Assembly: GCF_023555375.1 (NCBI RefSeq)
Contig: NZ_JAJSEE010000004.1
Coordinates: 1 to 64,000 of the forward strand
Length of the DNA stretch: 64,000 nucleotides
DNA from: Guyparkeria hydrothermalis
GTDB lineage: Bacteria > Pseudomonadota > Gammaproteobacteria > Halothiobacillales > Halothiobacillaceae
Direction: 5' to 3'
Within the stretch, counting starts at the first letter, position 1. Each line of letters opens with the position of its first letter. The translations under genes were made by a program, and so were the position numbers. Of the stretch, positions 6,076 to 23,822 are shown one piece after another. Below the pieces are notes generated by a model. That model saw nothing but the letters and a program-made list of their open reading frames with translations. It did not search any database and had not been told where the DNA came from.

Positions 6076-6312
6076 ATGCAGGCACTGGAAATCATCCGCA
6101 CCGGCATCGCCGAGAACACGGACGTCGATCCGGCCACCATCACCCCCGAAAGCCGGCTCGACGAGCTCGGCGTCGATTCCTTCACCCTACTCGAGCTGAT
6201 CTTCTCGCTCGAGGAACAGATGGAAATCGAACTCGGCAACGACGTCGGCACCCCCGAAACGATCCAGGACCTGATCGACATCCTCGAGCCTCACCTGCCG
6301 ACCAATGGCTGA
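6076..6312 (+). CDS. Acyl carrier protein (aryl polyene cluster)
   Basis: Acidic 78 aa carrier protein with the phosphopantetheine motif GVDSF; S35 is the expected attachment site. First gene of the pigment operon. In aryl polyene clusters one of two carriers holds the aryl starter and the growing polyene (ApeE/ApeF-like roles; which is which cannot be told here). The ATG at 6076 has AGGAAGG upstream and is preferred over an in-frame ATG at 6049. Overlaps the ketosynthase start by 8 bp. Confidence 0.9.
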   Translation: MQALEIIRTGIAENTDVDPATITPESRLDELGVDSFTLLELIFSLEEQMEIELGNDVGTPETIQDLIDILEPHLPTNG

Positions 6313-7570
6313 CCCCACCGGCCAGCAACGGGTCGTCGTCACCGGTCTATCCATTCTCGATCCTCTCGGCGGGACCACCGAGGCGGTCTTCGAGCGCGCC
6401 CTCGCCGGCCAGTCCAGCGTGCGCCTGTACCCCTACGGCGACGAGACGATCGGCGGTTGCACCCCGGCCGTCTTCTTCGACCCGATCGATTTCGAGGCAC
6501 GCCTCGGCAAGGCCACCTGCCGCAGCACCGACCCCTTCGCGCGCCTGGCCATTTTGGCCGCCGACGAGGCCTGGCAACACGCGCAGCTACCGTCGCCAGA
6601 CGAGTCACCCGATCCGCGCGCCGGCGTCCACTGGGGTACCGCCCTGGGCGGCATCAACACCTTCGAGAACGGCTATCGCGCCTTCTGGAAGGAAGGCCGC
6701 AAACGGCTCTCGCCGATGTCGGTGGTCATGGGCATGAACAACGCCGCCGCCTCACAGATCGGCATCCGCTTCCGGCTCGGGGGCGTATCCGTGACCCATA
6801 GCGTGGCCTGCGCGTCGGCGGCCATCGCCATCGGCGAGGCCTACCAGCGCATCCGTGACGGCGAGATGGACCTGATGGTTGCCGGTGGCTCGGACCTGCC
6901 ACTCGGCATCGGTGTATTGCGGGCCTGGGATGCGATGCACATGCTTGCCCCGGGAGACGACGAATCCGCCCACCGGGCCTGCCGCCCGTTTCACCCGGAT
7001 CGCCGCGGGCTGGTGCTCGCCGAAGGAGCGGCCGCCTTCGTGCTCGAATCCAGGGAACACGCCGAGCGGCGTGGCGCGACGATCCTCGCGGAACTGGCCG
7101 GTTACGGCGCCTCCAACGATGCCAACCACGTGGTGCGCCCCGATCACCGCGGCCAGGTCCGCGCCATCCATGCCGCCCTGGACGATGCCGGGCTCGATCC
7201 CGACGCGATCGGCTACATCAACGCCCACGGCACCGCCACGACCGAGGGCGACGCGATCGAAGTGCGCGCCATTCGCGAATCGTTCGGCGACCAGCGCGCG
7301 AAGCGCCTGCCCGTCAGCGCCACCAAGGCGGTGCATGGGCACGCGATGGGCGCGACCGGCGCGATCGAGGCGGCACTGACCGTCCTGACGCTACAACAGG
7401 GTAAACTGCCGCCCACCGCGCACCTCGACCAACTCGATCCCGCCTGCGACGGGGTCGACCTGGTGCGCGACGCGGCCCGTTCCGCCCCGGAGATCCGCGC
7501 GGCGCTGTCGAACTCGTTTGCGTTCGGTGGGAGTAACGCCGTGCTCGCCTTCACCCGCGCCGAGGACTGA
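6305..7570 (+). CDS. Beta-ketoacyl-ACP synthase, FabF-like (ApeR-like)
   Basis: Condensing enzyme of 421 aa with a complete thiolase-fold triad: C169 in SVACASAA, H308 in NAHGTATTEGD, H346 in KAVHGHAMGATG, and a C-terminal NSFAFGGSN loop. It should catalyse decarboxylative Claisen condensation of malonyl-ACP onto an ACP-bound acyl chain. Its place among carriers, ligase and dehydratase fits the stand-alone ketosynthase of aryl polyene clusters (ApeR-type). A second ketosynthase is at 17339-18574. Cytoplasmic. Confidence 0.92.
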   Translation: MADPTGQQRVVVTGLSILDPLGGTTEAVFERALAGQSSVRLYPYGDETIGGCTPAVFFDPIDFEARLGKATCRSTDPFARLAILAADEAWQHAQLPSPDESPDPRAGVHWGTALGGINTFENGYRAFWKEGRKRLSPMSVVMGMNNAAASQIGIRFRLGGVSVTHSVACASAAIAIGEAYQRIRDGEMDLMVAGGSDLPLGIGVLRAWDAMHMLAPGDDESAHRACRPFHPDRRGLVLAEGAAAFVLESREHAERRGATILAELAGYGASNDANHVVRPDHRGQVRAIHAALDDAGLDPDAIGYINAHGTATTEGDAIEVRAIRESFGDQRAKRLPVSATKAVHGHAMGATGAIEAALTVLTLQQGKLPPTAHLDQLDPACDGVDLVRDAARSAPEIRAALSNSFAFGGSNAVLAFTRAED

Positions 7571-7584
7571 GCCCCGCGGATCTT

Positions 7585-7935
7585 ATGACCGATCAACCGA
7601 CTCGAACGATGACCGATAGCCCGATGAGCCCAGACTCGATGACCCAAGACTCGATGACAGACAATCACGACAACGCCGTCGACGCGCTGATCCCGGAAGT
7701 GGCCGCCGAGCTGGTCGAGGCCCTGAACCTCGACGAGACGCCCGAGGAAATCGATCCGGACGAGCCGTTGTTCGGTGACGGGCTGGGGCTCGATTCCATC
7801 GACGTGCTGGAAATCGCCCTGGTGGTCTCGAGACGCTACGGCCTGAACCTGCGCTCCGACGACGAGCGCAACGAGCAGATCTTCGCCTCACTGCGCAATC
7901 TATGCCGCTTCATCGCCGAGAATCGCAGCAAGTAA
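7585..7935 (+). CDS. Acyl carrier protein, second (aryl polyene cluster)
   Basis: Carrier protein of up to 116 aa with the motif GLDSIDVLEIAL; S71 is the phosphopantetheine site. The core fold starts near residue 31. The first 27 residues contain several Met residues in a Thr/Ser/Asp/Met-rich stretch, so true initiation could be downstream (for example at 7654). The last 34 bp overlap the next gene. Together with the 6076 carrier it makes the usual ACP pair of aryl polyene systems. Confidence 0.88.
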   Translation: MTDQPTRTMTDSPMSPDSMTQDSMTDNHDNAVDALIPEVAAELVEALNLDETPEEIDPDEPLFGDGLGLDSIDVLEIALVVSRRYGLNLRSDDERNEQIFASLRNLCRFIAENRSK

Positions 7936-8612
7936 CCGGCCCGTCGGCCGCCGCCCGCCTGCGTGGCTGGCTGATCGGCGCGATGCTGGTATTCAACCTG
8001 GTGTTCGCGCAGCTGTTCGCCGGGCAGGACCAGGTGTCCCTTGCCCAGGCGACGCTCGTCATCGCCCCGCTGGGCGTCATCCTCCTCGTCGTGCTCGCCT
8101 CGCGCCGGTCACCGCTGGCCGCCCCTTTCGTTGCCCTCACGCAACTCGGCATCATCACGCTCCTGGTCCTGGGCGTCGCGGCGCTCCTGAAACAACACAT
8201 CTACCTGCTCTACCTGGTGCAGCACCTGGCCGTCCACGCCGCGTTGGCCTGGTTCTTTCTCGCCAGCCTGCGCCCGGGCCACGTGGCGGCCTGCACGCGC
8301 TTTGCCGCCCAGGTGCACGCCCACATGTCGCCGGCCCTGAACCGCTACACGCGGCAGATCACTTGGGCCTGGGGGCTGTTTTTCATCGCCAACGGTGTGG
8401 TTTCCGCCGGACTGATGATCATCGCCGGGCCGGCGGTCTGGGCCGACTACGCGATCTACGCCACCTTCCCGCTGGTCACCCTGATGTTCGTGCTGGAGTA
8501 TCTCGTTCGGCTGCGCGTGCTGCCCCGCGAGGACCTGTCCAGCCCCTGGAGCGCGGTGATTGCCTACCGGCGCCACCTGCGTCAGGCCGCGGAACAACGG
8601 GCCCGTCCATGA
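7902..8612 (+). CDS. COG4648-type integral membrane protein (aryl polyene cluster)
   Basis: Hydrophobic 236 aa protein with about six membrane helices: two near 22-65, two near 75-120, and two near 150-205. It belongs to the uncharacterised membrane family regularly found between the ACP and acyl-ligase genes of aryl polyene clusters (ApeG position). The biochemical role is unknown. Its start lies inside the preceding ACP gene (34-bp overlap) and its stop overlaps the ligase ATG, so the genes are tightly coupled. Confidence 0.82.
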   Translation: MPLHRRESQQVTGPSAAARLRGWLIGAMLVFNLVFAQLFAGQDQVSLAQATLVIAPLGVILLVVLASRRSPLAAPFVALTQLGIITLLVLGVAALLKQHIYLLYLVQHLAVHAALAWFFLASLRPGHVAACTRFAAQVHAHMSPALNRYTRQITWAWGLFFIANGVVSAGLMIIAGPAVWADYAIYATFPLVTLMFVLEYLVRLRVLPREDLSSPWSAVIAYRRHLRQAAEQRARP

Positions 8613-10060
8613 CCGATCGCCGCCCTCACGCCCCAACCCGTGACATCCCGTTGGTCCCGGACGGCGACCCGACGCGCGTGTTGCTGATCGACGGCGACCA
8701 ACGCTGGACGGTTGCCGACGTGCTGGCAAGCGCCCGGGACCTCCAGGCGGCACTGCAGGCGCTGCCCGGCCCGGTCGAGCACCTGATCAACCTCGCCGCG
8801 CGCCGCGACCGGTTTCTCGTCGGCCTGGTCGCCGGCATCCTCGGCGCGCAGGTCAGCCTCATGCCCTCCACGCGCAGTCGCGGAGCCATCGAGGACCTGC
8901 TGGTCGACCACCCCGGCACGGTGATCCTGCACGACGGCGACGAACCACTGGACTCATCGTTCGGTCTCGAGGGGCAGCAGCTGACCATCCCGCCGCTGCG
9001 CCCGGCACGCATGCCGGCCGAGGCGATGCCGCGGATCCCCGGCGACCAACGGATCGCCCGCGTGTTCACGTCGGGGACGACCGGCAAGCCCAAAGGCCAC
9101 GACAAGCACTGGGGTCGACTGGTCGAGAACGCCGGCGCGGCCGCCCGCGCCCTTGCTGTCGACGACGCGGACGACAGCCACTCGGACAGCGACGCGGTCC
9201 ACGGACTGCACCTGCTCGGGACCGTCCCGTCGCAGCACATGTACGGCTTCGAGTCACTGATCCTGGCCGCGCTCTGCGGCGGGGCGACCCTGAGCGTCGA
9301 CCAGCCGTTCTTCCCCGACGACATCGCCACCGCCCTGGGCAAGCTGCCCTCGCCGCGCATGCTGGTCACCACCCCCTATCACCTGCACCACCTGCTGGCC
9401 TCGGATGGCGACCGAACCAGCTGCGAGCAGGTCCTGTGTGCCACCGCCCCGCTGGATGCCGCGCTGGCCGAGCAGGCGGAACAGGCGCTCGGTTGCGCGC
9501 TCAAGGAGATCTACGGGTCGACCGAGACCGGCCAGGTCGCCGTTCGCCGTCCGACCCGCCAGCCCCATTGGCGGCTGATGGACGGCATCCGTCTCGAGCG
9601 ACGTCCGGGCGGCGAGGTGATCGCCTCCGGTGGTCACATCGAACGCCCCGTCCCGCTGGCCGACTGCATCGAGCCGGTGGATGCCGGGCGCTTTCGCCTG
9701 GCCGGCCGGCTGGCCAACCAGGTCAACATCGCCGGCAAGCGCAGCTCGATCGAGCACCTCAATACCACGCTGCGCGCCATCGAGGGGGTGGAGGACGGCC
9801 TCTTCTTCCGACCGCAAGCAACCGACTGCGACGGCCGGCGACCCGAACGGCTCGCCGCGATCGTGCGCGCCCCCGGTCTGACCTCGGGGGTAATCCGTCA
9901 GGCGTTGCGGGAACACCTCGACCCGGTCTTTCTCCCTCGCCCGCTCGTGCTGGTCGAACAGATGCCGGTCAACGCCACCGGCAAGATCACGCGCGATGCC
10001 CTGGAGGCCATCCTGACCGACGGTAACGCCGCCGAGTTTTCCCGTCGGGACGCGAGTTGA
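8609..10060 (+). CDS. AMP-binding acyl-CoA/ACP synthetase (ApeH-like)
   Basis: ANL-superfamily ligase of 483 aa. The nucleotide loop FTSGTTGKPKG is at 153-163; the later EIYGSTETGQVA motif and a C-terminal NATGKITRDAL with the catalytic Lys complete the fold. It is expected to adenylate an aryl acid, probably a hydroxybenzoate or hydroxycinnamate, and load it on a carrier protein as starter unit. The ATG at 8609 overlaps the upstream stop (ATGA); the longer open frame to 8363 is only the shadow of the membrane protein gene. Confidence 0.92.
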   Translation: MTDRRPHAPTRDIPLVPDGDPTRVLLIDGDQRWTVADVLASARDLQAALQALPGPVEHLINLAARRDRFLVGLVAGILGAQVSLMPSTRSRGAIEDLLVDHPGTVILHDGDEPLDSSFGLEGQQLTIPPLRPARMPAEAMPRIPGDQRIARVFTSGTTGKPKGHDKHWGRLVENAGAAARALAVDDADDSHSDSDAVHGLHLLGTVPSQHMYGFESLILAALCGGATLSVDQPFFPDDIATALGKLPSPRMLVTTPYHLHHLLASDGDRTSCEQVLCATAPLDAALAEQAEQALGCALKEIYGSTETGQVAVRRPTRQPHWRLMDGIRLERRPGGEVIASGGHIERPVPLADCIEPVDAGRFRLAGRLANQVNIAGKRSSIEHLNTTLRAIEGVEDGLFFRPQATDCDGRRPERLAAIVRAPGLTSGVIRQALREHLDPVFLPRPLVLVEQMPVNATGKITRDALEAILTDGNAAEFSRRDAS

Positions 10061-10446
10061 TGATCGACTCACCGCAACCGCTGGCCGAGTGGACGCCGTC
10101 GCCGGAGATGCCCGTGTTCCGCGGGCACTTCCCGGACAACCCGCTGTTGCCCGGCGCCATGCTGATCGACTGGGCCATGTCGGCGTACATCGATCGCCTC
10201 ACGAACATGGCGGCCGGTCCGACTGACGGCGCGGACGGCGTGCCGGCCGCCACCATGGCCGTGCGCCAGGCCCGTTTTCCCGCCCCCGCGCGCCCGGGCA
10301 TCCCGCTGCATCTCCAAACACAACCCGCACGCCGCGGCCGGACCCGGCTGCAGGTCGTCGCCACGCCCGCGTCTGGGGAGCGCCACGTAGTGCTCGACCT
10401 GTTGCTGGAAGCACGGCAAGGCAACGATCCGGAGGTGACCTCGTGA
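10057..10446 (+). CDS. Hotdog-fold 3-hydroxyacyl-ACP dehydratase (ApeI-like)
   Basis: FabA/FabZ-like hotdog protein of 129 aa with the catalytic signature FRGHFPDNPLLPGAML (H24). It should dehydrate 3-hydroxyacyl-ACP to the trans-enoyl intermediate in each polyene cycle. Related clusters encode two small hotdog proteins, ApeI and ApeP, reported to work as a heteromer; the second here is at 14440-14940. Start and stop both overlap the neighbours by 4 bp. Confidence 0.9.
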   Translation: MMIDSPQPLAEWTPSPEMPVFRGHFPDNPLLPGAMLIDWAMSAYIDRLTNMAAGPTDGADGVPAATMAVRQARFPAPARPGIPLHLQTQPARRGRTRLQVVATPASGERHVVLDLLLEARQGNDPEVTS

Positions 10447-11408
10447 GTCGGGAGCACACCGCGGCGGCCCATTGGTGGACACGTCGGGAGCGTGGCCATC
10501 CGGCCTTGCTCCGCCTGATGGCGTTTGTCTCGCTGAAAGCCGGCAGGCGGGTGAGCCGGCTGTTGCTCGCGCCGATCAGCCTGTATTTCCTGCTGTTCGT
10601 ACCGGCCGCACGCCGGGCCAGTCGCGATTTCCTCGGCCGGGTGCATGGCCGACCGGCCCGATGGGGCGAGGTCTACCGGCATTTCCACGATTTCGCCAGC
10701 ACCATCCACGACCGGCTGTTCTTCCTGAGTGATCGCTTCGAGGCGTTCGAGGTCGAGGTGGTCGGGGCCGAGTGCTTCGATCCGCCCGACCCCGCCATTC
10801 TGGTCGGGGCGCACTTTGGCAGCTTCGACGTCCTGCGGGCCATGGGACGGTTCGAACGCGACCTGCCGATCAGCATGATGATGTACCCGGAAAACGCCCG
10901 GAAGATCCAGCAGGTACTCGAGGCGCTCAACCCCGAGCGGAGTCAGGACATCATCCCGTTGGGCCGCATCGACTCCATGCTCGAGGCCGGCACCCGCCTG
11001 GAACAGGGACACCTGGTCGGCATGCTCGCCGATCGCAGTCTCGAGGGTGACCCGATGGGAACCCGTCCGTTCCTCGGTCAACCGGCCCGCTTTGCGGTCG
11101 GCCCCTTCCGCATGGCCGCGATCCTCCGCCAGCGACTGTTGCTCATGGCCGGCATCTACCTGGGCGGCAACCGCTACCGGATCCACTTCGAGCCACTGGC
11201 CGATTTCCGCGATCTCCCGCGACGCAATCGTTCCCGCGCGGTCGATGAGGCCATGGACCGCTACGTCGACCGCCTGGAAACCCTGGTCCGGGCCTACCCG
11301 GGCAACTGGTTCAACTTCTACGATTTCTGGGGCGCCGAGCCTGGGCAGGAACAACCGCGGGATGAGCGAGAAACCGCCACCACGCCCCCATCGCAGGAGC
11401 GACCATGA
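10443..11408 (+). CDS. LpxL/HtrB-like acyltransferase (aryl polyene cluster)
   Basis: Lysophospholipid / lipid A acyltransferase-family protein, 321 aa, with an N-terminal membrane-associating helix at about 38-56 and the catalytic HX4D box as HFGSFD at 124-129. Families of this type move acyl chains from ACP to a lipid or sugar. In the pigment pathway it is a good candidate for transferring the finished polyenoyl chain to a membrane anchor, though the acceptor is not known from sequence. ATGA overlaps on both sides. Confidence 0.87.
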   Translation: MSREHTAAAHWWTRRERGHPALLRLMAFVSLKAGRRVSRLLLAPISLYFLLFVPAARRASRDFLGRVHGRPARWGEVYRHFHDFASTIHDRLFFLSDRFEAFEVEVVGAECFDPPDPAILVGAHFGSFDVLRAMGRFERDLPISMMMYPENARKIQQVLEALNPERSQDIIPLGRIDSMLEAGTRLEQGHLVGMLADRSLEGDPMGTRPFLGQPARFAVGPFRMAAILRQRLLLMAGIYLGGNRYRIHFEPLADFRDLPRRNRSRAVDEAMDRYVDRLETLVRAYPGNWFNFYDFWGAEPGQEQPRDERETATTPPSQERP

Positions 11409-12043
11409 CCCCGATCCCGTCGATCGCGCGGCGGCTGCTTGCCCCGGCCCTGCTGCTTCCCGGCCTGCTGTGCCTGCCCTTGCCGACGCTGGCAATCGAG
11501 CTGGAGACGCTCGCCGCGGCCCTTGCCGCCCGGGGTGCGGACAGCACCACCTACGAGCAGACGCGCTATCTCGGCATCCTCGACGAGCCGCTGGAATCCA
11601 GCGGCCGACTGGCCTTCGAGCCGCCCGACCGCCTGGTCCAGGAGCAACTCGCCCCGGAACCACGCACGCTCATCCTCGATGGCGAGGAAATGACCTATTC
11701 GGCGGCCGGGCGCGAGCGGGTCGTTTCGCTTGACGACTCGCCGCAAGGGGCGGCCCTCGCGGCCAGCCTGCGCGGCATCCTCAACGGTCAGGTCGAGGCA
11801 TTGCGCGACGACTACGAACTGGTGCTGCGCGAACGCGCCGGGGATGGCTGGCAGTTGAACCTGCTGCCGTTGACCGAGGAACTGGCCGACCGCATTCGCC
11901 GAATCGAGGTGATCGGCCAGTTCCGGGACCAGCGGGCCGAGGTCGAGCGAATGACGCTGGAATTCGCCAACGGTGACCGCAGCGTGATGCGCCTGGGCGT
12001 CCCGGCGGGGGATGCGCCCGATCGGGAGCCCACCTCGCCGTGA
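11405..12043 (+). CDS. LolA-like outer-membrane lipid carrier (aryl polyene cluster)
   Basis: Secreted 212 aa protein with a signal peptide of about 30 residues ending LPTLA, then a LolA-like half-barrel pattern (TYEQTRYLGILDEPLESSGRL, EQLAPEPRTLILDG). LolA-related proteins next to MMPL exporters occur in most aryl polyene clusters and are thought to carry the lipid-linked pigment across the periplasm. It is not the housekeeping LolA by context. Overlaps its neighbours by 4 bp on both sides. Confidence 0.87.
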   Translation: MTPIPSIARRLLAPALLLPGLLCLPLPTLAIELETLAAALAARGADSTTYEQTRYLGILDEPLESSGRLAFEPPDRLVQEQLAPEPRTLILDGEEMTYSAAGRERVVSLDDSPQGAALAASLRGILNGQVEALRDDYELVLRERAGDGWQLNLLPLTEELADRIRRIEVIGQFRDQRAEVERMTLEFANGDRSVMRLGVPAGDAPDREPTSP

Positions 12044-14436
12044 CGCGCTTCCTCAGACCCACGCTCGTCATCGGCCTGTGGCTTTCGGTGCTGTTGCTGG
12101 CGGTCTATTCGATCACACAGACGCGCTTTACCGCGGACATGTCCGCCTTCCTGCCCGCCTCCCCCAGTCCGGAGCAACGGCTGCTGGTCGACCAGCTCCA
12201 ACAGGGCGGCATCTCGCGCACCTTCCTGATCGGCATCGAGGGCGGCACGGTCGAGCACCGGGCCGAGGCGAGCCGTCGGTTGCACGCGGCGCTCGCCAAC
12301 GACCCGGCCTTCACGAGCGTGCAGAACGGCGATGCGGGCGACCGCGAGCGAGCGCGGCACGTCCTGTTCGAGCATCGCTACCTGCTCAGCCCCAACGTGA
12401 CCGACGAACGCTTCTCGGTCGACGGGTTGCGACAGGCCATCGGCCAGTCGATCGCCGATCTGAATTCCCCCCTCGGCGATGTCACGCGGGAGCTGTTTCC
12501 GCGCGATCCCACGGGGGAAATGCTGGCGCTGATCGACGGGCAATCGACCGGCAGCGGACCAGACCGCTGCTGCGGGGTGTGGACGGGCGCCGAACGGTCG
12601 ACCATGCTGCTGGTCGCGCAGGCCAGCGCCTCCGGGTCGGATACCGACGGGCTCGCCCGGGCCGTGAATCGTATCGAGGCGGCATTCCACTCGATGCGCG
12701 ATGACATCGCCCCATCCCTGCGCCTGGTGATTGCCGGCTCGCCCATGTTCGCGATCGAGGCACGCGACCGCATCAAGGCCGAGGTGACCCTGTTCACGAC
12801 CATCAGCGTCGTGCTGGTCACCCTGGTCCTGCTGCTCGCCTATCGCTCGGTGCCCGTCTTGCTCGCCGGCTTGCTGCCCGTGGGCAGCGGGGTGGCCGTG
12901 GGGATCGCCGTGGTCGGCCTGGGATTCGACGAGGTCCACGGCATCACCATCGGGTTTGGCACCGCCCTGATGGGCGAGGCAATCGACTACAGCATCTACT
13001 ATTTCGTCCAGTCGCGGCAGGGGGAGCGGGACACGACGCAGCCGGGCTCGACCAGCCGCGACTGGCTGACGACCTACTGGCCCACCGTGCGCCTCGGCCT
13101 GCTCACCTCGCTGATCGGGTTCGCCGCCCTGCTCTTCTCGGGATTCCCGGGCTTGATGCAGATCGGGCTCTACGCGATGACCGGCCTGCTGACCGCCGCA
13201 CTGGTCACGCGGTTCGTGCTGCCGATCCTGGGGCCGAAACTGCCCCGGGCGGACATCGCTGGCCTGGGACGACGGCTCGCCCGCCCCGTCGCTTCCCTGC
13301 GCCGCCTACGGGTCCCGGCCGCCCTGCTGGGTGGGCTCGCCGTGATCGTGCTCGTCTGGCAGCACGATGGGCTCTGGCGCGACACGCTCTCCGGGCTCGC
13401 CCCGATCGATCCGCGCCTGGAGGCGACCGATGCCCGCCTGCGCGACGAGCTGGGCTCGCCGAGCCCGCGCCACCTCGTGGTGGTCCGGGGTGAGGATCGG
13501 GAGGCGGCCTTGCGCGCCGCCGAGCGCGTCACCGCGATCCTCGACAAGGAAATCGAGGCGGGCCGTCTGGCCGGGTATCGTTCGCCCACCTCGATCCTCC
13601 CCTCGCAGGCCACCCAGCAGGCCCGGCAGGGGGCCCTGCCCACCCGCGAGGAACTCGAGCGTCGACTGGATACCGCGCTGGCCGACCTGCCGGTATCGAC
13701 CGACCGCCTCGGGGGATTCGTGGATGACGTGGTGCGCCAACGCGAGACGGACCTGATCGACCTGACGGCGCTCGAAGGCACCCCCTTGTGGCTGGCCGCC
13801 TCCGGTCAATTGCCGGAGGCCAGCGGGACCGACCCGTCGGTGGCCATGATTACCTTGCGCACGGCGGACAGCAGCACACCACTCGAGACCGGCGCGCTGC
13901 GCGAGGCGCTGTCCCCGGTCGAGTCCGCCGTGCTGATCGACATGCTCGCCGAATCCAACCGGCTCTACGGCCGCTACCTCCACACCACCCTGCTGGTCTC
14001 TCTACTGGGCGCGGCCGCGATCGTCCTGCTGTTGCTGTGGGTCCAGGCCAATCCTCGACACACGTTGCGCACCCTGCTGCCGATCACGCTGGCGATCGTG
14101 TTGGTGCTTGCCGGTCACGCTCTGCTCGGCGGACAACTGACCCTGCTGCACCTGGTCGGGCTGCTGCTGGTCGCGGCCATCGGTTCGAATTACGCGCTGT
14201 TCTTCCAGCCCCGGCCCAACGACGACACGGGCATTGATGCGCAACGCGATGCCCGCACACTGGCCTCCCTGACCCTGGCGACCGCGACCACCGTCTGCGC
14301 CTTCGGCGTGCTGGCGTTCTCGCACGTCCCCGTGCTGCAGGCGATCGGTGCGACCGTGGCGCCGGGGGCGCTTGCCGCCTGGCTGCTCGCCGCGATCTTT
14401 GCCGACACCCCGAACGCAACGACCCCGGATTCCTGA
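12040..14436 (+). CDS. MMPL/RND-family lipid exporter (aryl polyene cluster)
   Basis: Inner-membrane transporter of 798 aa with the internally repeated RND layout: a helix at about 7-25, a periplasmic domain to about 245, five or six helices to about 400, helix 7 near 430, a second periplasmic domain to about 645, and a second helix bundle to the end. Motifs such as GFGTALMGEAIDYSIYY fit the MMPL family. It would flip or extrude the lipid-linked aryl polyene. Coupled to the LolA-like gene by a 4-bp overlap. Confidence 0.92.
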   Translation: MTRFLRPTLVIGLWLSVLLLAVYSITQTRFTADMSAFLPASPSPEQRLLVDQLQQGGISRTFLIGIEGGTVEHRAEASRRLHAALANDPAFTSVQNGDAGDRERARHVLFEHRYLLSPNVTDERFSVDGLRQAIGQSIADLNSPLGDVTRELFPRDPTGEMLALIDGQSTGSGPDRCCGVWTGAERSTMLLVAQASASGSDTDGLARAVNRIEAAFHSMRDDIAPSLRLVIAGSPMFAIEARDRIKAEVTLFTTISVVLVTLVLLLAYRSVPVLLAGLLPVGSGVAVGIAVVGLGFDEVHGITIGFGTALMGEAIDYSIYYFVQSRQGERDTTQPGSTSRDWLTTYWPTVRLGLLTSLIGFAALLFSGFPGLMQIGLYAMTGLLTAALVTRFVLPILGPKLPRADIAGLGRRLARPVASLRRLRVPAALLGGLAVIVLVWQHDGLWRDTLSGLAPIDPRLEATDARLRDELGSPSPRHLVVVRGEDREAALRAAERVTAILDKEIEAGRLAGYRSPTSILPSQATQQARQGALPTREELERRLDTALADLPVSTDRLGGFVDDVVRQRETDLIDLTALEGTPLWLAASGQLPEASGTDPSVAMITLRTADSSTPLETGALREALSPVESAVLIDMLAESNRLYGRYLHTTLLVSLLGAAAIVLLLLWVQANPRHTLRTLLPITLAIVLVLAGHALLGGQLTLLHLVGLLLVAAIGSNYALFFQPRPNDDTGIDAQRDARTLASLTLATATTVCAFGVLAFSHVPVLQAIGATVAPGALAAWLLAAIFADTPNATTPDS

Positions 14437-15736: not shown

Positions 15737-15778
15737 GGCCCAACGGGTGACCTGAGTTGTCGGCAGCTCATGGCTCGC

Positions 15779-16522: not shown

Positions 16523-17342
16523 GATGTTGGGTCGCGTTATTCACTTGATAGTTGACCTCGAGCCCGTCGGTTCCGTCCATGACCAGATGCAGTTGCCGCG
16601 ACTCGCCCCGGGCGATGGCATCCAGCAACGGCAGCAGGCGCCCGGCCGGCACGCCGCGGCGCATGCGCTCCCAGTCCGGGTGACCCAGGACGCCCTCGAC
16701 CGGACCGTTTCCCTCGGCCATGCCAAGCGTCACTCGGTGGACATCACCGGCTTGCGCCGGGGCAATAACCAGCCCGACGGCCATCGGCTCGGCGATCGGT
16801 TCGGCCCGGCACATCGGCTCGGGGAACGGCAGGTCATAGACGGCGAGCAGCACCGGTTGGTTCCCCAGCGTGGCCTGCATGGCGGCCTCGAGCAGACCCA
16901 CGGCGGCGGTTTCGTGGTGCGCGGCGATCGCCGTGGCCGGCTCGCGTGCGCCCACCGCGATCGACCAGTAGCCCGAGGCCGCGTTGTGCACCGAGTTGTG
17001 AAAGCGGATCGGCGAGATCATGCGCTCGGGCTCGGCCAGCGAGGCGCAACTCTGGGTCAGCACCTCGGTATCCCCGGTCGACGAGGCGAACACCATGGGC
17101 AGGGTGGCCGGGTCCAGGCCCGCGGACTCCACCGCCTCCCAGCAGGCCGTCATGGCCAGGCGTGTGCTCTTGCCGGCGCGGCGACGCTCCGTGCGCGGCA
17201 GGCGGTCGGCCTTCAGCGCCCGCCCGAGCTCGGCGAGCGGCATGTGACCCGGTGCATCACCGCCCCTGAGCGCCGCGGCCGCCTCGGTCCAGTCGGCGAG
17301 CGCGGCGCCCACAAAGCCGATGCCTCGAATCGAGAGGTTCAT
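16512..17342 (-). CDS. Ketosynthase-like partner without active-site Cys (ApeC-like)
   Basis: Short 276 aa protein of the beta-ketoacyl synthase N-terminal family (ketoacyl-synt_2 type) with the family stretch FHNSVHNAASGYWSIA. No TACSSS nucleophile and no C-terminal His motifs are present, so it cannot condense alone. In aryl polyene systems such a protein pairs with an intact ketosynthase as a chain-length-factor-like subunit. ATG at 17342 overlaps the upstream stop (ATGA); the frame further out is the shadow of the ketosynthase gene. Confidence 0.87.
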   Translation of the reverse strand: MNLSIRGIGFVGAALADWTEAAAALRGGDAPGHMPLAELGRALKADRLPRTERRRAGKSTRLAMTACWEAVESAGLDPATLPMVFASSTGDTEVLTQSCASLAEPERMISPIRFHNSVHNAASGYWSIAVGAREPATAIAAHHETAAVGLLEAAMQATLGNQPVLLAVYDLPFPEPMCRAEPIAEPMAVGLVIAPAQAGDVHRVTLGMAEGNGPVEGVLGHPDWERMRRGVPAGRLLPLLDAIARGESRQLHLVMDGTDGLEVNYQVNNATQHHDR

Positions 17343-18574
17343 GCCGCCTCCTCCGCTCTGCCGAACAGCAGGCTGCAATTGTTGCCACCGAAGCCGAACG
17401 AGTTGCTCATCACGCACCGCGGTGCCATGTCGCGGTTGGCCAGCAGGTAGTCGGCGCTGAAGGCCGGGTCGCGGCGCTCGGTGTTGAGGGTACCCGGCAG
17501 GAAGCCGTGCTCGATCGCCAACACCCCCGTGACCAACCCGGTAATGCCGGCCGCACCCAGCGTGTGACCGGTCCAGCCCTTGGTCGAGGAGCAGGCCTGC
17601 CCGGGTCCGAAGACGGCCTCGAGCGCCCGATCCTCGGCGGCGTCGTTCACGCGACTGGCCGTCCCGTGCAGATTGACGTAATCCACCGTATCGGACCTTC
17701 TGCCGGCGGCGTCCAGGGCCCGGCGCATCGCGAGCTCCGCCCCCTTCCCCTCGGGGTGCGGCGAGGACATGTGGTGGGCATCAACGCTTTCGCCGACACC
17801 GAACAGGCAAAGCGATGACTCACCGCGGTTGGTGGCCGCCGGTGCGGGCTCGACCAGTGCAAAGCCGGCGGCCTCGCCAATGGAGATGCCGTCGCGTTCC
17901 ACGTCGCCGGGGCGACAGGGCCCGGTCGAGGTCAGTTCCAGCGAGGCGAACCCGTACAGGGTGGTCAGGCAGAGGCTGTCCACGCCGCCAACCACCACCG
18001 CATCGCAGACGCCGGCGGCAATCAGTCGTTGCGCGCTGGCGAAGACCTTGCCGCTCGACGAACAGGCGGTGGACACCGCGTAGATCGGCCCGGCGAGCCC
18101 CAGGCGCTTGCGCAGGTAGCGCGGCGCGGAGGACAGCTCGTGCGTGGTGGCGTAATGGAGCGGGCTCGGCAACGCCCCGGTCGCCGGGTCGCGCTCGTGG
18201 AAGGCTAGCTCCGTGTGCAGGATGCCGGAGGTGCTGGTACCGAGCACCACGCCGATGCGATGGGCGCCGTAGCGTCGAACGGCCTCGGCTACCGCCTCGC
18301 CAAAGCCGTCCTGCTGTAGGGCGAGCTCGGCCAGCCGGTTGTTGCGGCAATCGTAATCGGCCAGGGCACTGGGCAGGGAAACCGATTCAAGCCCCGCGAC
18401 CCGCCCGATCCACGTGGGCAGGTCCACGTCGAGGAAATCGCAGGGCGCCAGCGCGCCGCGACGCGCGCGCAAGGCGTCGAGCAATGCGCCCTTGCCCGGC
18501 CCGGCGGCCGTGGTGACCGTCAGGGCCGAGAGGGCGAGTGGCGGCAGCGGCCCGTTGGCCTCGTGCATGCTCAT
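17339..18574 (-). CDS. Beta-ketoacyl-ACP synthase (ApeO-like)
   Basis: Ketosynthase of 411 aa with C171 in STACSSS, H303 in NLHGTASRVND and H337 in KGWTGHTLGAAG, plus the C-terminal NSFGFGGNN loop. A complete triad means it is catalytically competent. It is translationally coupled to the cysteine-less protein at 16512, which fits a KS/CLF-like heterodimer that elongates the polyene. Coupled also to the upstream PAP2 gene by a 4-bp overlap. Confidence 0.92.
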   Translation of the reverse strand: MSMHEANGPLPPLALSALTVTTAAGPGKGALLDALRARRGALAPCDFLDVDLPTWIGRVAGLESVSLPSALADYDCRNNRLAELALQQDGFGEAVAEAVRRYGAHRIGVVLGTSTSGILHTELAFHERDPATGALPSPLHYATTHELSSAPRYLRKRLGLAGPIYAVSTACSSSGKVFASAQRLIAAGVCDAVVVGGVDSLCLTTLYGFASLELTSTGPCRPGDVERDGISIGEAAGFALVEPAPAATNRGESSLCLFGVGESVDAHHMSSPHPEGKGAELAMRRALDAAGRRSDTVDYVNLHGTASRVNDAAEDRALEAVFGPGQACSSTKGWTGHTLGAAGITGLVTGVLAIEHGFLPGTLNTERRDPAFSADYLLANRDMAPRCVMSNSFGFGGNNCSLLFGRAEEAA

Positions 18575-19326
18575 CGATCGACCTCGGGCGAGGATTGAGG
18601 GGAAACGCCGAGCCGGTCACGGGACGACTCGTCGCGCGCCATGGTCATACCCGCCGCCGAGAGCCGGTTGGCCGACAACCAGACGAAGGCGAGTGCCAGG
18701 ATGACGCCGCCGACGACGTCCAGGAACACGTGCTGGGCGATCGCCAACGTGGAATAGACGATGCCCAGCGCCCACAGCGCCGAGACGACGCGCCACCAGT
18801 TCGGCATGCCGATGGAACGAATCAGGCGATCCATCCAGAAGGCGCTGAACAGGGCGGTGGCGACGTGCAGGGAGGGAAAGGCGTTACCACTGCTGTCGAC
18901 GGCGGCGAGCCAGGCGAAGGCCGGCTCACCGGCCCACAGGGTCGGATCGCGCTCGATGCTGGTGGGAAAGGCGAGGAACACCGCCAGCCCGGCCAGGCAG
19001 AGCGCGCCGATCGCGACCCCGTAGCGCACCAGGGTGGCCCGATCGGGCATCAGGGCCGGCACCAGCGAGACGTAGACCCACAGCGAGGCATACAGGTAGA
19101 AAAAGGCCGGCTCGAACACCACCTGCCGGTCGACCCAGGTTTGCGGCATGACCAAGGGCTCGGTCACCGGCGCGGCCAGCAGGTGGAAGTAGGCCATGAA
19201 GAACAGGGTCATCATCAGGGTCGTCCCAAGCCCCTTCAAGAACCAGCAACAGGCCATCCGTCGCCCCAGTTCCCGCCACCACGCCCGCGGCGTCGCGCTC
19301 GCGTCTCGTCCTCGATCGACCGATGC
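18571..19326 (-). CDS. PAP2-family membrane phosphatase/transferase (aryl polyene cluster)
   Basis: Integral membrane protein of about 250 aa with six predicted helices. PAP2 motif 2 is NAFPSLHVA and motif 3 is QHVFLDVVGG with the paired His and Asp; PSLH in place of PSGH is the inositol-type (PAP2_3) variant. It may dephosphorylate or transfer a lipid-linked headgroup. First gene of the minus-strand unit. The start is ambiguous: GTG at 19326 (chosen), ATG at 19257, or GTG at 19371, which would lie inside the neighbouring MITE repeat. Confidence 0.83.
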   Translation of the reverse strand, partial: ASVDRGRDASATPRAWWRELGRRMACCWFLKGLGTTLMMTLFFMAYFHLLAAPVTEPLVMPQTWVDRQVVFEPAFFYLYASLWVYVSLVPALMPDRATLVRYGVAIGALCLAGLAVFLAFPTSIERDPTLWAGEPAFAWLAAVDSSGNAFPSLHVATALFSAFWMDRLIRSIGMPNWWRVVSALWALGIVYSTLAIAQHVFLDVVGGVILALAFVWLSANRLSAAGMTMARDESSRDRLGVSPQSSPEVDR

Positions 19327-19358
19327 CACCCTGATTTCGTCCCCCGGCGTGTGCGTAA

Positions 19359-19635
19359 GGAAACTCTGCACGATTCGATGACGTCTCTGCGGGATCTCCC
19401 AGGGCCCAGGTGCAAGGCGCAGTCCGCCGTGAAGGGCTCGTCGCCTTTACAAGGGCGGCAACGCCGCCGATGGGTCCTTGGAGGCCCGCCCGAAGGGGCT
19501 TGCGGGCTTGCCCGCACTCGGCGTTGCCGTCCCTCGACGGGCCCAAGTGATCGCCCCGGGCCCGCCTTCGGTCCGGCGCCTTGATTGCGGGCAAACCCGC
19601 GAGCCAGAGATGACATCGAATCGTGCAGAGTTTCC
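19359..19635. mobile_element. MITE-like element, complete copy of 277 bp
   Basis: Ends are inverted repeats: GGAAACTCTGCACGA at 19359 and its complement at 19621-19635, with the match running on to 22 perfect base pairs. The interior is nearly the same as the element at 56876. No transposase or convincing coding sequence. Flanks GTAA and CTGA do not show a clean duplication. It sits between the two divergent pigment units, directly upstream of the PAP2 gene. Confidence 0.85.
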
Positions 19636-19881
19636 CTGAGTGCGCGCGACTATCGCACGCCCCGACCCGCGCATTCAAGCGAACGCGCCTTTCCGCGACG
19701 TCTCCGGGACGCCGGGCAGCGACGGGTTCGGCCGGCCAACGACGCGCCAATCGTTCGCCACCCCATCGAAGTTGACGCGACCTGCCCGGACTCCGATCAT
19801 AACGCCCCGCCAGGACCGGCCATCGGGCCATCGACTGGCCGTCACCCCGACACACCGATCACCGCCACCAAGGCCGACCGC
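19636..19881. other. Non-coding spacer between divergent pigment operons
   Basis: Together with the MITE this gives about 550 bp without a gene between the PAP2 and halogenase-like starts. It should hold the promoter for the plus-strand unit at 19882. A TTGACG at 19772 is the best -35-like hexamer, but no well-spaced -10 follows, so no promoter is called. No hairpin or riboswitch fold was recognised. Confidence 0.5.
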
Positions 19882-21267
19882 ATGCACGAACAGGACCTAA
19901 CCGCCACGGACCAGAACCCCAACCACGAGCGGGCAGCCGTCGACGCCGGCTATTGCGACACCTTCGTGGTCGGCGGGGGCCCGGGCGGCTCGACCCTCTC
20001 CACCCTGCTCGCGCGCAAGGGCCACGACGTGGTGATGGTCGAAAAGGAACACCATCCGCGGTTTCATATCGGCGAATCACTGCTGCCGGCGAACCTCGAA
20101 CTATTCGAGACCCTGGGGGTGGCCGACGAGATCGCCGAGATCGGCATCGACAAGTGGGGGGCCGAGTTCGTCTCGCCGGCGCACGATCACACCCAGCATT
20201 ACAATTTCGGCGAGGCCTGGGACAAGTCGATGCCCAAGGCCTACGAGGTCGAGCGCGCGGAATTCGACCGCATCCTGTTCCGCAACGCCTCGCGCCACGG
20301 CGTGCGCACGGCCGAGGGCACCACGGTGGTCGACATCGACTTTCACGACCCGGCGCGGACGGACGACCAGGGACGCGACTATCACGCCACCGTTACCACC
20401 CGCGACGAAGCCGGCAACCGGAAAACCTGGCGCACCGCCTTCGTCGCCGATGCGACCGGCCGCGATACCTTCCTGGCCAACCGCCACGGCTGGAAGCGCC
20501 GCAGCCGCAAGCACAACAGCGCGGCGGTGTTCGGCCATTTTCGCGACGCCAAGCGCAACCCGGGCAAGACCGAGGGCAACATCACCCTGTTCTGGTTCGA
20601 CCACGGCTGGTTCTGGTTCATCCCGTTGAAAAACGGGGTCACCAGCGTGGGCATGGTCACCTGGCCGTACCACATGAAATCCCGCCAGGGTCGGTCGCTC
20701 GAGCAGTTCCTGTTCGACAACATCGACACCGTGCCGGAACTCAAGCGTCGCCTGGCCGACGCCTCACTGGTGCGTGACGTGCAGGCCACCGGCAACTTCT
20801 CCTACTCGGCCGACCGCACCCACGGCAATCGCTTCATCCTGGTGGGCGATGCCTTCATGTTCATCGACCCGGTCTTCTCCAGCGGCGTGATGCTCGCGAT
20901 GCAGAGCGGCGTGTTCGGCGCCGATGCCATCGATACCGTCCTGCGCGAGCCGGCCCGGGCGAAACAGGCCCTCAAAACCTACGACCGCCAGGTACGCCAC
21001 GGACCGAAGGAGTTCTCCTGGTTCATCTACCGGATCACCAAGCCGGTCATGCGCGACCTGTTCATGGGGCCGCGCAATATCTTCCGCGTGAAGGAAGCGT
21101 TGATCTCGCTGCTGGCCGCCGATATCTATCGCGGCACGCCCATCTGGCGCTCGATCGCCACCCTCAAGGGCATCTACTACCTCACTTCGCTGGCTCGACT
21201 GCGCCACTCACTGCGCGACTGGTGGGCCCATCGCCGCAAGGTCCAGCCGGTCAGTCAGGATTCCTGA
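19882..21267 (+). CDS. Flavin-dependent halogenase-like oxidoreductase (aryl polyene cluster)
   Basis: FAD protein of 461 aa. The dinucleotide loop GGGPGG is at 31-36, followed by FHIGESLLP typical of tryptophan-halogenase/geranylgeranyl-reductase relatives. GWFWFIP at 242-248 matches the GWxWxIP signature of FADH2-dependent halogenases. A Lys in GIDKWGAEF (K91) is a candidate for the catalytic Lys. A FAD-binding GDAFMFIDPVFSSGV follows. It could halogenate the aryl head, as brominated xanthomonadins would need; a plain monooxygenase or reductase remains possible. First gene of the third unit. Confidence 0.8.
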   Translation: MHEQDLTATDQNPNHERAAVDAGYCDTFVVGGGPGGSTLSTLLARKGHDVVMVEKEHHPRFHIGESLLPANLELFETLGVADEIAEIGIDKWGAEFVSPAHDHTQHYNFGEAWDKSMPKAYEVERAEFDRILFRNASRHGVRTAEGTTVVDIDFHDPARTDDQGRDYHATVTTRDEAGNRKTWRTAFVADATGRDTFLANRHGWKRRSRKHNSAAVFGHFRDAKRNPGKTEGNITLFWFDHGWFWFIPLKNGVTSVGMVTWPYHMKSRQGRSLEQFLFDNIDTVPELKRRLADASLVRDVQATGNFSYSADRTHGNRFILVGDAFMFIDPVFSSGVMLAMQSGVFGADAIDTVLREPARAKQALKTYDRQVRHGPKEFSWFIYRITKPVMRDLFMGPRNIFRVKEALISLLAADIYRGTPIWRSIATLKGIYYLTSLARLRHSLRDWWAHRRKVQPVSQDS

Positions 21268-21274
21268 TCAACCG

Positions 21275-22300
21275 ATGAGCGCCTCGATGCCCAGCCCGGA
21301 AACCCGGCGAGGAGCAGTGCCCTCGCCGCTCGGGGTAATCACCCTGCCGGATCGGCCGGTCTCAGCGGGCCAGGGCTGTGTCGTCCAACTGCCGCTTGAG
21401 TGGCTTGCGGGCAAACCGGGTGACGCTGCCGAGGGCTTTTTGCTCGACCAGGAGGTCGAGACGAAAACGGGTGTCGGGCACTGCCTCGCGACCAGCCGCG
21501 GCTTTTCCTTCGGGGTGATCGAACTCGACGAGCAGGCGGGCCTCGCGGACGGCACCGAACGGGCCTACCGGCAACTCTTCGACCTGCTCGAGCAGTCGAA
21601 TACCCCGCACCTGTGGCGGGTGTGGCAGTACCTGCCGGCGATCAACGCGGACGACCCGGAGACTGGCCTGGAACGCTACCGGCTGTTTAATCAGGGCCGC
21701 GCCGCCGCATTTTCCGCCACCGGCCGCGACGTCGCCACCAGCGCACCGGCGGCCTGCGCGCTGGGTAGCGACGAGGGCGGTTCGGGCCGCCTGATCTTCC
21801 TCGCCGCGAACACGCCGGCCACGCCGATCGAGAATCCGCGCCAGGTCAGCGCCTACCGCTACCCGCCGAACTACGGTCCCAAGAGCCCGATCTTCGCTCG
21901 CGCCGCCATCGCCCGCGGCCCCGTCCATGACTGGCTTTTCATCTCCGGGACCGCGTCGATCACCGGGCATGCGACCCGTCATGTCGGCGACATCCACGCC
22001 CAGATCGACGAAACCCTGGCCAACCTGGAGGCGGTGCGCCAGGTGGCCAATGCCGAACGGACCGCCGGCAGCGCCGCGTTCGACTTCGACGCCAGCGCCC
22101 TGATCCGGGTCTATCTCCGTCACCCCCAGGACCTCGAGCCGGCACGCGAACGGCTGACGCAGTGGTTGAGCGGACCCAGCCAGGTCATGTTCCTGCGGGC
22201 GGACATCTGCCGCGCGGACCTGCTGGTCGAGATCGAGGCCACCCTGCGCCAGCCGCGTGGCAACGATGTGGTCGAACATGCCCCGTGGACGCACCTGTGA
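21275..22300 (+). CDS. xanB2: Chorismatase / pteridine-dioxygenase-like protein XanB2
   Basis: Protein of 341 aa of the XanB2/FkbO/Hyg5 chorismatase family. Recognisable stretches are LWRVWQYLPAIN, ERYRLFNQGRAAAF and QVSAYRYPPNYGPKSPIFARA, plus a RidA-like C-terminal domain (FISGTASITGH, DIHAQIDETLANLEAV). XanB2 converts chorismate to 3- and 4-hydroxybenzoate, supplying the aryl starter of xanthomonadin and also ubiquinone precursor. Starts 7 bp after the halogenase-like gene and overlaps the next by 4 bp. Confidence 0.92.
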   Translation: MSASMPSPETRRGAVPSPLGVITLPDRPVSAGQGCVVQLPLEWLAGKPGDAAEGFLLDQEVETKTGVGHCLATSRGFSFGVIELDEQAGLADGTERAYRQLFDLLEQSNTPHLWRVWQYLPAINADDPETGLERYRLFNQGRAAAFSATGRDVATSAPAACALGSDEGGSGRLIFLAANTPATPIENPRQVSAYRYPPNYGPKSPIFARAAIARGPVHDWLFISGTASITGHATRHVGDIHAQIDETLANLEAVRQVANAERTAGSAAFDFDASALIRVYLRHPQDLEPARERLTQWLSGPSQVMFLRADICRADLLVEIEATLRQPRGNDVVEHAPWTHL

Positions 22301-23061
22301 GCGGTAATCATTCCGTGAAAACCGGCTGGCGACGCCCCTGGGGTGTCCCCGTCCTGATCCTCGGCTTCGGGGGTCTGGGCGTCCTGCTGATCGGGTGGCT
22401 GCCGCTGGCCGTGCTCCTGCTGCTGGTTCGCGGCGACCGGCGTGCGCGAATGACCCGACAGGTCATCCATCAGGCCATGCGGCTCTACCGCGGCTGGCTG
22501 ACCCTGATCGGCGGCTGTCGCTTCCACACCGCCGCACTCGAGCCGTTGCGGCAGAGCAAGCCGGGGGTGGTGATTGCCAACCACCCGTCCCTGCTCGACG
22601 CCCTGGTGGTACTCGCCCACGCCCCCAACGTCGTCTGTGTCATGCGCGCCGGGCTGTTGAAGAACCCGCTGCTTGCCCTGCCGGCGCGCCTGGCGGGCTA
22701 CCTGCCGAACGACAACCCGGTCGAGATGATGCTGGGTGGGCGTGCGGCGATTCGCGCCGGGTGCCACGTGCTGCTGTTCCCGGAGAGTTCGCGCACGCGT
22801 CGAGCCAGTGGAGGCAGCGTGGATGCCTTTCACCCGGCCGCCTTCATGCTGGCCAAACGTGCCGAGGCACCCATCCATGCCTTCCTGTTCCGCTACGACT
22901 CGCCGCTGCTGGGCAAGGACGACCCCCTGTGGAGCCCGCCCCGCGTGCCTGTGCGACTGAGCGTGGCACCACTTGCCAACCGCCCGTCGATGCATGCCGA
23001 ACCGCGCGCCGAGGCCGAGGCATGGCACGCCGCTTATCGACAGGCACTGGAGGTGGCATGA
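22297..23061 (+). CDS. 1-acyl-glycerol-3-phosphate acyltransferase-like (PlsC fold)
   Basis: Membrane-anchored acyltransferase of 254 aa with hydrophobic helices at about 15-45 and the HX4D box as NHPSLLDALV. A later FPESSR motif matches the PlsC FPEGTR block. Start is the GTG at 22297, overlapping the XanB2 stop as GTGA; no ATG gives a full domain. In the pigment pathway it may acylate a glycerol- or sugar-phosphate acceptor, making it the cluster's second acyltransferase. Confidence 0.87.
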   Translation: MSGNHSVKTGWRRPWGVPVLILGFGGLGVLLIGWLPLAVLLLLVRGDRRARMTRQVIHQAMRLYRGWLTLIGGCRFHTAALEPLRQSKPGVVIANHPSLLDALVVLAHAPNVVCVMRAGLLKNPLLALPARLAGYLPNDNPVEMMLGGRAAIRAGCHVLLFPESSRTRRASGGSVDAFHPAAFMLAKRAEAPIHAFLFRYDSPLLGKDDPLWSPPRVPVRLSVAPLANRPSMHAEPRAEAEAWHAAYRQALEVA

Positions 23062-23822
23062 GTTCGACCCCAGACTTCGCCCCCCTGATCCTGATCCCCT
23101 GCTACAACCCCGGGGCACGCATCGACACCACGGTCGAGGCGGCCTCCCGCAGCGGCTTGCCCGTCTGGATCGTGGATGACGGCAGCGACGAGTCGACCCG
23201 TCGGCGCCTGGCGGACTTGGCGCAGCGCTTCCCGCAGGTGACGGTACTGCGCCACGAGACGAACCGCGGCAAGGGGGCCGCGGTGCTGACTGGACTACAG
23301 GGCGCGCGTGCCCAGGGCTTCACCCATGCACTCACCCTGGATGCCGACGGGCAACACCCGGCCGACCGTATCGACGCGTTCATCGGCGCCGCCGGCGATC
23401 AAACCGAGGCCCTGATCCTGGGTCGGCCGGTGTTCTCGGCCGACGCCCCGGCATTGCGCGTACAGGGGCGCAAGGTCTCGAATTTCTGGGCAAACCTGGA
23501 AACGCTCTGGGCGGGCATTGGCGACTCGCTGTTCGGCATGCGGGTCTACCCGATCGACGATCTGGTCGCGGTGATGTCGGAAACCCGCTGGATGCGACGC
23601 TTCGATTTCGACCCCGAGGCCGCGGTGCGCCTGGCCTGGCGAGGACTGCCACTGGTGAACATGGACGCGCCCGTGCGCTACTTCGATGCCGAGTCCGACG
23701 GGGTCTCGCACTTCCGCTACGGGCGGGACAATCGGCTCCTGATCTGGATGCACCTGCGCTTGCTGGCAGGTTTCCTGCGCCGGTTGCCGCGGCTGATCCG
23801 ACGGCGTTGGCAAGACAGCTGA
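23058..23822 (+). CDS. Family 2 glycosyltransferase (aryl polyene cluster)
   Basis: Cytoplasmic GT2 enzyme of 254 aa: an N-terminal nucleotide-sugar half (LILIPCYNPGARI, VWIVDDGSDE), the metal-binding LDADGQH, and the acceptor half with FDFDPEAAVRLAWRG. Members close to dolichol-phosphate-mannose synthase transfer a sugar to a lipid carrier. It probably glycosylates the aryl polyene lipid. ATG at 23058 has GGAGGTGG just upstream and overlaps the acyltransferase stop. Last gene of the third pigment unit. Confidence 0.92.
   Translation: MSSTPDFAPLILIPCYNPGARIDTTVEAASRSGLPVWIVDDGSDESTRRRLADLAQRFPQVTVLRHETNRGKGAAVLTGLQGARAQGFTHALTLDADGQHPADRIDAFIGAAGDQTEALILGRPVFSADAPALRVQGRKVSNFWANLETLWAGIGDSLFGMRVYPIDDLVAVMSETRWMRRFDFDPEAAVRLAWRGLPLVNMDAPVRYFDAESDGVSHFRYGRDNRLLIWMHLRLLAGFLRRLPRLIRRRWQDS

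Follow-up and report, generated by a model that had tools for sequence, protein, structure and literature searches.

Of the described systems closest to the locus reported here, the pig locus of Xanthomonas is reported to comprise seven transcription units (PMC3838355); the arcuflavin gene table of Azoarcus sp. BH72 includes a halogenase (arcA), a XanB2 (arcB) and a deacetylase (arcN) (PMC3949708); and the E. coli aryl polyene is described as starting from 4-hydroxybenzoate (4-HBA) supplied by UbiC (PMC8253772). We analysed a 64-kb window, positions 1-64000 of contig 4, from the genome of Guyparkeria hydrothermalis (2,433,989 bases in 9 contigs), of which strain R3 originates from a hydrothermal vent chimney (PMC9032823). 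Positions 6076-23822 of this window hold 19 intact genes with no internal stops which, judging from their sequences, very probably constitute a xanthomonadin-type aryl-polyene lipid cluster, the product being probably a halogenated yellow membrane pigment. This kind of cluster, the xanthomonadin/arcuflavin type, is already known; the recurring lipid-tailoring genes are less expected. A literature search found no paper naming both Halothiobacillus and aryl polyene, and a word search of the main text of PMC9032823 found no mention of pigment, polyene, antiSMASH, yellow or halogenase.

As a preliminary description of this DNA had stated, a minus-strand unit (14981-19371) is set between two plus-strand units (6076-14940 and 19882-23822). 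The genes are tightly packed, the single large gap being a 510-base divergent region (19372-19881). All parts named in that description are present, namely, two acyl carrier proteins (ACPs), a ketoreductase, two dehydratases, a ligase, two acyltransferases, LolA-like and MMPL proteins, XanB2, a halogenase-like gene and a deacetylase. The three ketosynthase-type proteins are there as well, but only two are ketosynthases, the third being a chain-length factor (CLF). The ApeG-like gene (7902-8612), the PAP2 gene (18571-19371) and the glycosyltransferase gene (23058-23822) were missing from its list. The features are as follows:

6076-6312, plus: ACP 1, ApeF-like (PF00550; profile match to E. coli apeF, E 4.8e-10; Ser in GVDS kept)
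6305-7570, plus: ketosynthase, FabF/ApeR-like (PF00109/PF02801; best ape match apeR; Cys-His-His present)
7585-7935, plus: ACP 2, ApeE-like (PF00550; best match apeE, 48%)
7902-8612, plus: ApeG-like membrane protein (no Pfam family; profile match to apeG, E 1.4e-18)
8609-10060, plus: AMP-forming aryl-ACP ligase, ApeH-like (PF00501; apeH; start ATG at 8609 within the open reading frame 8363-10060)
10060-10446, plus: dehydratase, ApeI-like (FabA/ApeI-like hot-dog; PF07977, PF22818 below cut-off; apeI; GHFP His kept)
10443-11408, plus: LpxL-type acyltransferase, corresponding to the C-terminal half of ApeJ (PF03279; apeJ residues 246-549)
11405-12043, plus: LolA-like carrier, ApeL-like (PF19574; apeL)
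12040-14436, plus: MMPL/RND exporter, ApeM-like (PF03176; apeM)
14440-14940, plus: second dehydratase, ApeP-like (hot-dog; no Pfam match; 12-row profile matches PDB 6qsr_B, E 1.3e-11, and apeP, E 7.2e-10)
14981-15736, minus: CE4 polysaccharide deacetylase (PF01522; structure model; Asp-His-His kept)
15779-16522, minus: ketoreductase, ApeQ-like (PF13561; FabG model over cut-off; apeQ, 44%)
16512-17342, minus: CLF, ApeC-like (PF13723; PDB 7f28_A, 6qsp_B; apeC)
17339-18574, minus: ketosynthase, ApeO-like, with TACSSS motif (best PDB matches 7f28_B, 6qsp_A; apeO, 43%)
18571-19371, minus: PAP2-superfamily membrane enzyme, possibly Aur1/sphingomyelin-synthase-like (PF01569/PF14378; structure model and comparison)
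19372-19881, no strand: divergent intergenic region (block 19640-19659)
19882-21267, plus: flavin-dependent halogenase (PF04820; PDB matches; conserved motifs)
21275-22300, plus: XanB2-type chorismatase (PF21168; TIGR04444, 213 bits, cut-off 325; PDB 5ag3, 4bps)
22297-23061, plus: PlsC-type acyltransferase, ApeD-like (PF01553; apeD)
23058-23822, plus: family 2 glycosyltransferase, corresponding to the N-terminal half of ApeJ (PF00535; apeJ residues 4-242, 40%)

The reading of these frames as more than chance rests on three observations: a filter on G+C content by codon position is passed by 15 of the 19 longest open reading frames; the catalytic residues examined are retained in orthologues; and the ratio of nonsynonymous to synonymous substitution rates against genome G009 lies at 0.09-0.41 for 18 of the 19 genes, ACP 2 being left unpaired by the script. 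The frames failing the filter are those of the ligase, the CLF, the PlsC-type acyltransferase and the glycosyltransferase, the longest forms of which begin far upstream of the likely starts. Gene content, homology, retained catalytic residues and conservation are regarded as established. A promoter/terminator scan yielded sites no more numerous than in shuffled sequence and is therefore uninformative on transcription units.

We built profiles from the window genes together with their orthologues and ran them against the ape cluster of E. coli CFT073 (NC_004431), which matched 15 of the 19 genes to 14 of the 18 ape genes. The counterpart of ApeJ is split, with its glycosyltransferase part in the third unit and its acyltransferase part in the first. 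In the PDB search, the minus-strand ketosynthase and the CLF match two solved pairs, 6qsp, which we take to be the Xenorhabdus ApeO-ApeC structure, and 7f28; the second dehydratase leads to 6qsr, presumably the Xenorhabdus ApeI-ApeP structure. Of these, 7f28 is AbApeO-AbApeC (PMC8358021). The cluster accordingly contains the components of an aryl-polyene system, including an ApeO-type ketosynthase with an ApeC-type CLF, an aryl-acid ligase with dedicated ACPs, a ketoreductase with two dehydratases, and a LolA-like carrier with an MMPL exporter. Four genes lie beyond the ape set, namely, those for the XanB2-type chorismatase, the flavin halogenase, the CE4 deacetylase and the PAP2 membrane enzyme.

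It is the combination of XanB2 and halogenase that places the cluster with the xanthomonadin/arcuflavin-type pigments. The first seven PDB matches of the halogenase are all named halogenases, including 3e1t, 8zop, CmlS and PltA. The GGGPGG (flavin), Lys, WFWFIP (WxWxIP-type) and FIDPVFSSG positions, which we assume to carry their usual functional meaning, are kept in 18/18 rows, and by sequence the protein qualifies as the flavin halogenase of a xanthomonadin-type cluster. With 83-87% identity in six genus orthologues, it is among the best-conserved genes of the cluster. The assignment of the XanB2-type chorismatase is based on PF21168 and on a PDB alignment, in which the protein follows 5ag3 and 5a3k (SGTAS; Cys at the place of DVCR/DICR in 5ag3) and not FkbO 4bps (SATAG; DIAR). 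The Cys is kept in all 19 other rows and Ser-Gly in 18 of them, the remaining one having Ala-Gly. We assume that residues of the SGTAS/DVCR type separate enzymes forming 3-hydroxybenzoate, such as 5ag3 and 5a3k, from FkbO. The aryl-polyene/xanthomonadin assignment made in the preliminary description is thus borne out by the ape matches, the ketosynthase-CLF pair, XanB2 and the halogenase, and its caution that the exact structure is not predictable appears fair.

From this gene set we infer every reaction, the product, its cell location and its role. XanB2 would convert chorismate to 3-hydroxybenzoate, probably also to 4-HBA, and the ligase would load the aryl acid onto an ACP. The ApeO-ApeC-like pair, aided by the FabF/ApeR-like ketosynthase, would then add malonyl units, the ketoreductase and the two dehydratases leaving a conjugated polyene, to which the halogenase would add chlorine or bromine. 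The glycosyltransferase and the two acyltransferases would build a glycolipid anchor, to be modified by the deacetylase and the PAP2 enzyme, whereas the MMPL and LolA-like proteins would carry the pigment lipid to the outer membrane. In a vent chimney, such a pigment would likely guard the cells against oxidants rather than light.

Several observations weigh against this assignment. Profile searches confined to the 19 cluster genes found no counterpart of apeA, apeB (methyltransferase), apeK or apeN, the genes that would mark an E. coli-type aryl-polyene cluster, which leaves methylation, release and the final step of export unaccounted for, unless they are served by genes elsewhere. In the PDB search, FabF chains rank above ApeR 7f27 as matches of the ketosynthase at 6305-7570, and the lower-ranked PDB matches of the halogenase include monooxygenases of the same flavoprotein superfamily. 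XanB2 scores 213 bits against TIGR04444, under the NCBIfam cut-off of 325; all 20 XanB2 matches among 57 relatives likewise fall under it. Furthermore, the reaction type of chorismatases is not accurately predictable from alignment alone (PMC3949708), so that alignment cannot decide whether XanB2 forms 4-HBA. Finally, the cluster is absent from G004, a nearly complete (99%) genome of the genus.

The 15 genes in common with E. coli ape would also suit an E. coli-type aryl polyene with a 4-HBA starter and no halogen, in which XanB2 would serve ubiquinone only and the halogenase-like protein would be a hydroxylase. Another use for XanB2 is conceivable, given that UbiC was not found, and one relative, G022, keeps XanB2 (L063 7660-8766) without a pigment-type ketosynthase. 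However, the retention of the halogenase motifs in every row, the halogenases heading the PDB matches, and the adjacency of the XanB2 and halogenase genes, as for arcA and arcB by locus number (PMC3949708), render this alternative improbable.

We consider still less probable an arcuflavin-like hybrid of aryl polyene and dialkylresorcinol, with resorcinol genes elsewhere in the genome. The arcuflavin set, which is spread over more than one locus, also has a halogenase, XanB2 and a deacetylase (PMC3949708), but family searches recovered no DarA/DarB candidate among the 19 genes (no genome-wide DarA/DarB search was made), and the cluster has glycolipid-type anchor genes of its own. As for a modified fatty-acid glycolipid that is not a pigment, the resemblance of the enzymes to those of fatty-acid synthesis and the lipid-tailoring types represented by the deacetylase, glycosyltransferase and PAP2 protein would be in keeping with it; yet no enoyl reductase was recognized among the 19 genes, the short-chain dehydrogenase/reductase of the cluster being over the FabG cut-off, the ApeO-ApeC-type pair is dedicated, and XanB2 would supply an aryl starter, all of which makes this the least credible of the alternatives. 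We thus favour a halogenated, xanthomonadin-type aryl-polyene lipid.

In addition to its presumed role in pigment synthesis, XanB2 may also supply a ubiquinone precursor, since UbiC (PF04345) is found in none of the 11 genomes of the genus, whereas UbiA is present in all of them. A bifunctional role of the Xanthomonas XanB2 is known (cited in PMC3949708), and ubiquinone-8 is stated to be the dominant quinone (PMC9032823). UbiC was likewise found in none of the 10 genomes of the sister genus, and XanB2 is encoded in 8/11 and 8/10 genomes of the two genera, respectively. Two further genera of the family, in which XanB2 was not found, have UbiC in 4/5 and 1/1 genomes, respectively; UbiA is present in 26 of 27 family genomes. 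Across 232 genomes of the class, UbiC is lacking in 34 of the 44 genomes with a strong XanB2 match versus 53 of the other 188 (Fisher p 5e-9, uncorrected for relatedness), or, if four weak XanB2 matches are included, in 35/48 versus 52/184 (p 3e-8, likewise uncorrected). Strong XanB2 matches occur in 28 families, 21 of which have no UbiC in any member with such a match. Two sets of genomes run counter to the idea, however. G004, G014, G024 and G025 (98-99% complete) have UbiA but match neither UbiC nor XanB2, as do the less complete G003 and G008, so that at least some of these relatives must have another source of 4-HBA, and 10 of the 44 class genomes with strong XanB2 also carry UbiC. XanB2 can also be uncoupled from the pigment genes in location: in G013, it lies elsewhere on the chromosome (L037 18357-19271), apart from the pigment cluster, and in G023, on a separate contig. 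A scan of genome contigs for XanB2 returned three loci. A relative with 36% identity is found in a metagenome-assembled genome of Planctomycetota (L003 10001-10915).

The AlphaFold2 model of the deacetylase (pLDDT 84.9) matches CE4 structures, including ArnD, and the Asp-His-His metal site is kept in 14/14 rows, as befits a NodB-fold CE4 enzyme; no segment of the protein is strongly hydrophobic. The PAP2 model (pLDDT 77.5) aligned best with inositol-phosphorylceramide synthase, Aur1 and a relative of sphingomyelin synthase, with Z scores of 14.4, 14.1 and 13.9 for 9vj4, 9ivc and 8ijq versus 12.6 and 12.1 for the phosphatases 5jki and 6ebu, a modest lead of 1.3-2.3 units because Z near 14 is common in mostly helical models. 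The protein thus possibly fits the Aur1/sphingomyelin-synthase structures slightly better than it fits phosphatases. Its profile retrieved no PDB sequence at E <= 0.1, and its model no Foldseek match at E <= 0.001. PSLH is kept in 15/15 rows.

Searched against the 232 class genomes, the PAP2 profile matched eight at E <= 1e-12, comprising three of the genus, four strong matches (G063, G152, G238 and G240) and a weak one (G156). In G063 and G240, which represent two other gammaproteobacterial families, the gene is inside an aryl-polyene cluster, and in G152 it is about 8 kb from XanB2; no aryl-polyene cluster surrounds it in the short stretches inspected of G238 and G156. The deacetylase profile matched three genomes of the genus and G227, where ApeJ-like genes lie no more than about 4 kb from the gene; the G240 cluster contains a deacetylase-like stretch that is weaker (38% over part of its length) and went unlisted by the profile search. 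The pairing of XanB2 and a deacetylase, pointed out in the preliminary description, is not supported as new, given that the arcuflavin set has both; a deacetylase as such is ruled out as new to these clusters by arcN (PMC3949708). A literature search, which left aside the other names of the enzyme, found no paper with both aryl polyene and PAP2, and the word phosphatase is absent from three papers checked, including the main text of PMC3949708.

ApeJ joins some aryl polyenes to N-acetylglucosamine (PMC8776678), which would provide a substrate for the deacetylase. A tentative and rather doubtful extension would have the product as a halogenated aryl-polyene phospho-glycolipid, in which the CE4 enzyme first unmasks an amino sugar and the PAP2 protein, as an Aur1-like transferase, then adds a phospho-head group to the pigment lipid, with XanB2 as the sole 4-HBA source for ubiquinone-8. 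If this were the case, one gene, XanB2, would tie pigment and respiration together.

All 19 genes are found in the same order and orientation in five of the 10 other genomes of the genus (G001, G002, G005, G007 and G009), flanked by pal and an FMN-binding-protein gene. G010 has 15 of the 19 genes in order, the fetched stretch ending inside the ligase gene; in G006 and G008, one cluster end is at a contig edge; and nothing of the cluster was seen in G003 (64% complete). Between the same flanks, G004 instead carries a tyrosine integrase, Mrr and MmeI-type restriction genes and a terminase-like gene (L044 = G004:C17:85000-104500, 3304-14537). A tRNA-Ser(tga) gene is located beside pal, with either the cluster or the G004 integrase arrangement. 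A DUF4197 gene (23851-24696) adjoins the cluster and, among the genus stretches searched, was matched there only in G008 and G009.

A pigment ketosynthase of the same kind, with 62-66% identity, is encoded in 8/10 genomes of the sister genus (g4), and the block PAP2-ketosynthase-CLF-ketoreductase-deacetylase is kept in all eight. The plus-minus-plus order recurs in three of them (G013, G017 and G023), whereas in G021 the order differs, the second block having the same direction as the first; no first block was seen in G019 in the 13.8 kb from the deacetylase gene to the contig end, and the stretches of G015, G025 and G026 are cut. Given the five matching genus genomes and the varying sister-genus orders, the arrangement in three units has been inherited in the genus and is no accident of this genome, yet it varies across the family. 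The earlier view that such clusters are usually co-directional is true of E. coli ape, but opposed units are not unusual: apart from the genus genomes, the clusters of G038 and G240 are also split, and together with the several units of the Xanthomonas locus (PMC3838355) they rule out the layout as a mark of novelty.

The divergent region contains a GTGCG-N9-CGCAC inverted repeat (19640-19659), possibly a candidate regulator or promoter site, which is found nowhere else in the window. Of six genus relatives examined, five (G001, G002, G005, G009 and G010) have this block in changed form; G002 and G009 differ in the left arm, G005 and G010 in the right. The 119 bases used as the G007 spacer do not contain it.

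If the assignment is correct, halogenated aryl-polyene chemistry has a host in an isolated vent sulfur oxidizer, and it becomes possible to test directly, outside Xanthomonas, how a pigment gene is linked to the supply of ubiquinone. The recurrence of the PAP2 gene in aryl-polyene clusters points at the lipid anchor, the least-known step.

Among known systems, the E. coli CFT073 ape cluster differs in being co-directional, in having apeA, apeB, apeK and apeN and ApeJ as one fused gene, and in lacking XanB2, halogenase, deacetylase and PAP2. The Xanthomonas pig locus, by its description (PMC3838355), is similar in XanB2, halogenase, ACP, ligase, acyltransferases, exporter and division into several transcription units. 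With the arcuflavin clusters, judged by gene descriptions (PMC3949708), the Guyparkeria cluster shares a halogenase adjoining XanB2, a ketosynthase with an N-terminal-ketosynthase protein, a ketoreductase, dehydratases, acyltransferases, a glycosyltransferase, LolA, an exporter and a deacetylase. However, Azoarcus has two loci, a methyltransferase and a dialkylresorcinol hybrid pigment (PMC3949708), whereas in Guyparkeria the genes form a single locus, which includes two ACPs, PAP2 and a second ketosynthase. Natronochrome and chloronatronochrome of Thioalkalivibrio are described as yellow membrane pigments of halophilic sulfur oxidizers, one form being chlorinated by name, with genes still "to be identified" in 2011 (PMC3368412). 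A link to the Guyparkeria cluster, drawn from these descriptions, is only a suggestion, but it hints at where the pigment genes of such bacteria might be sought.

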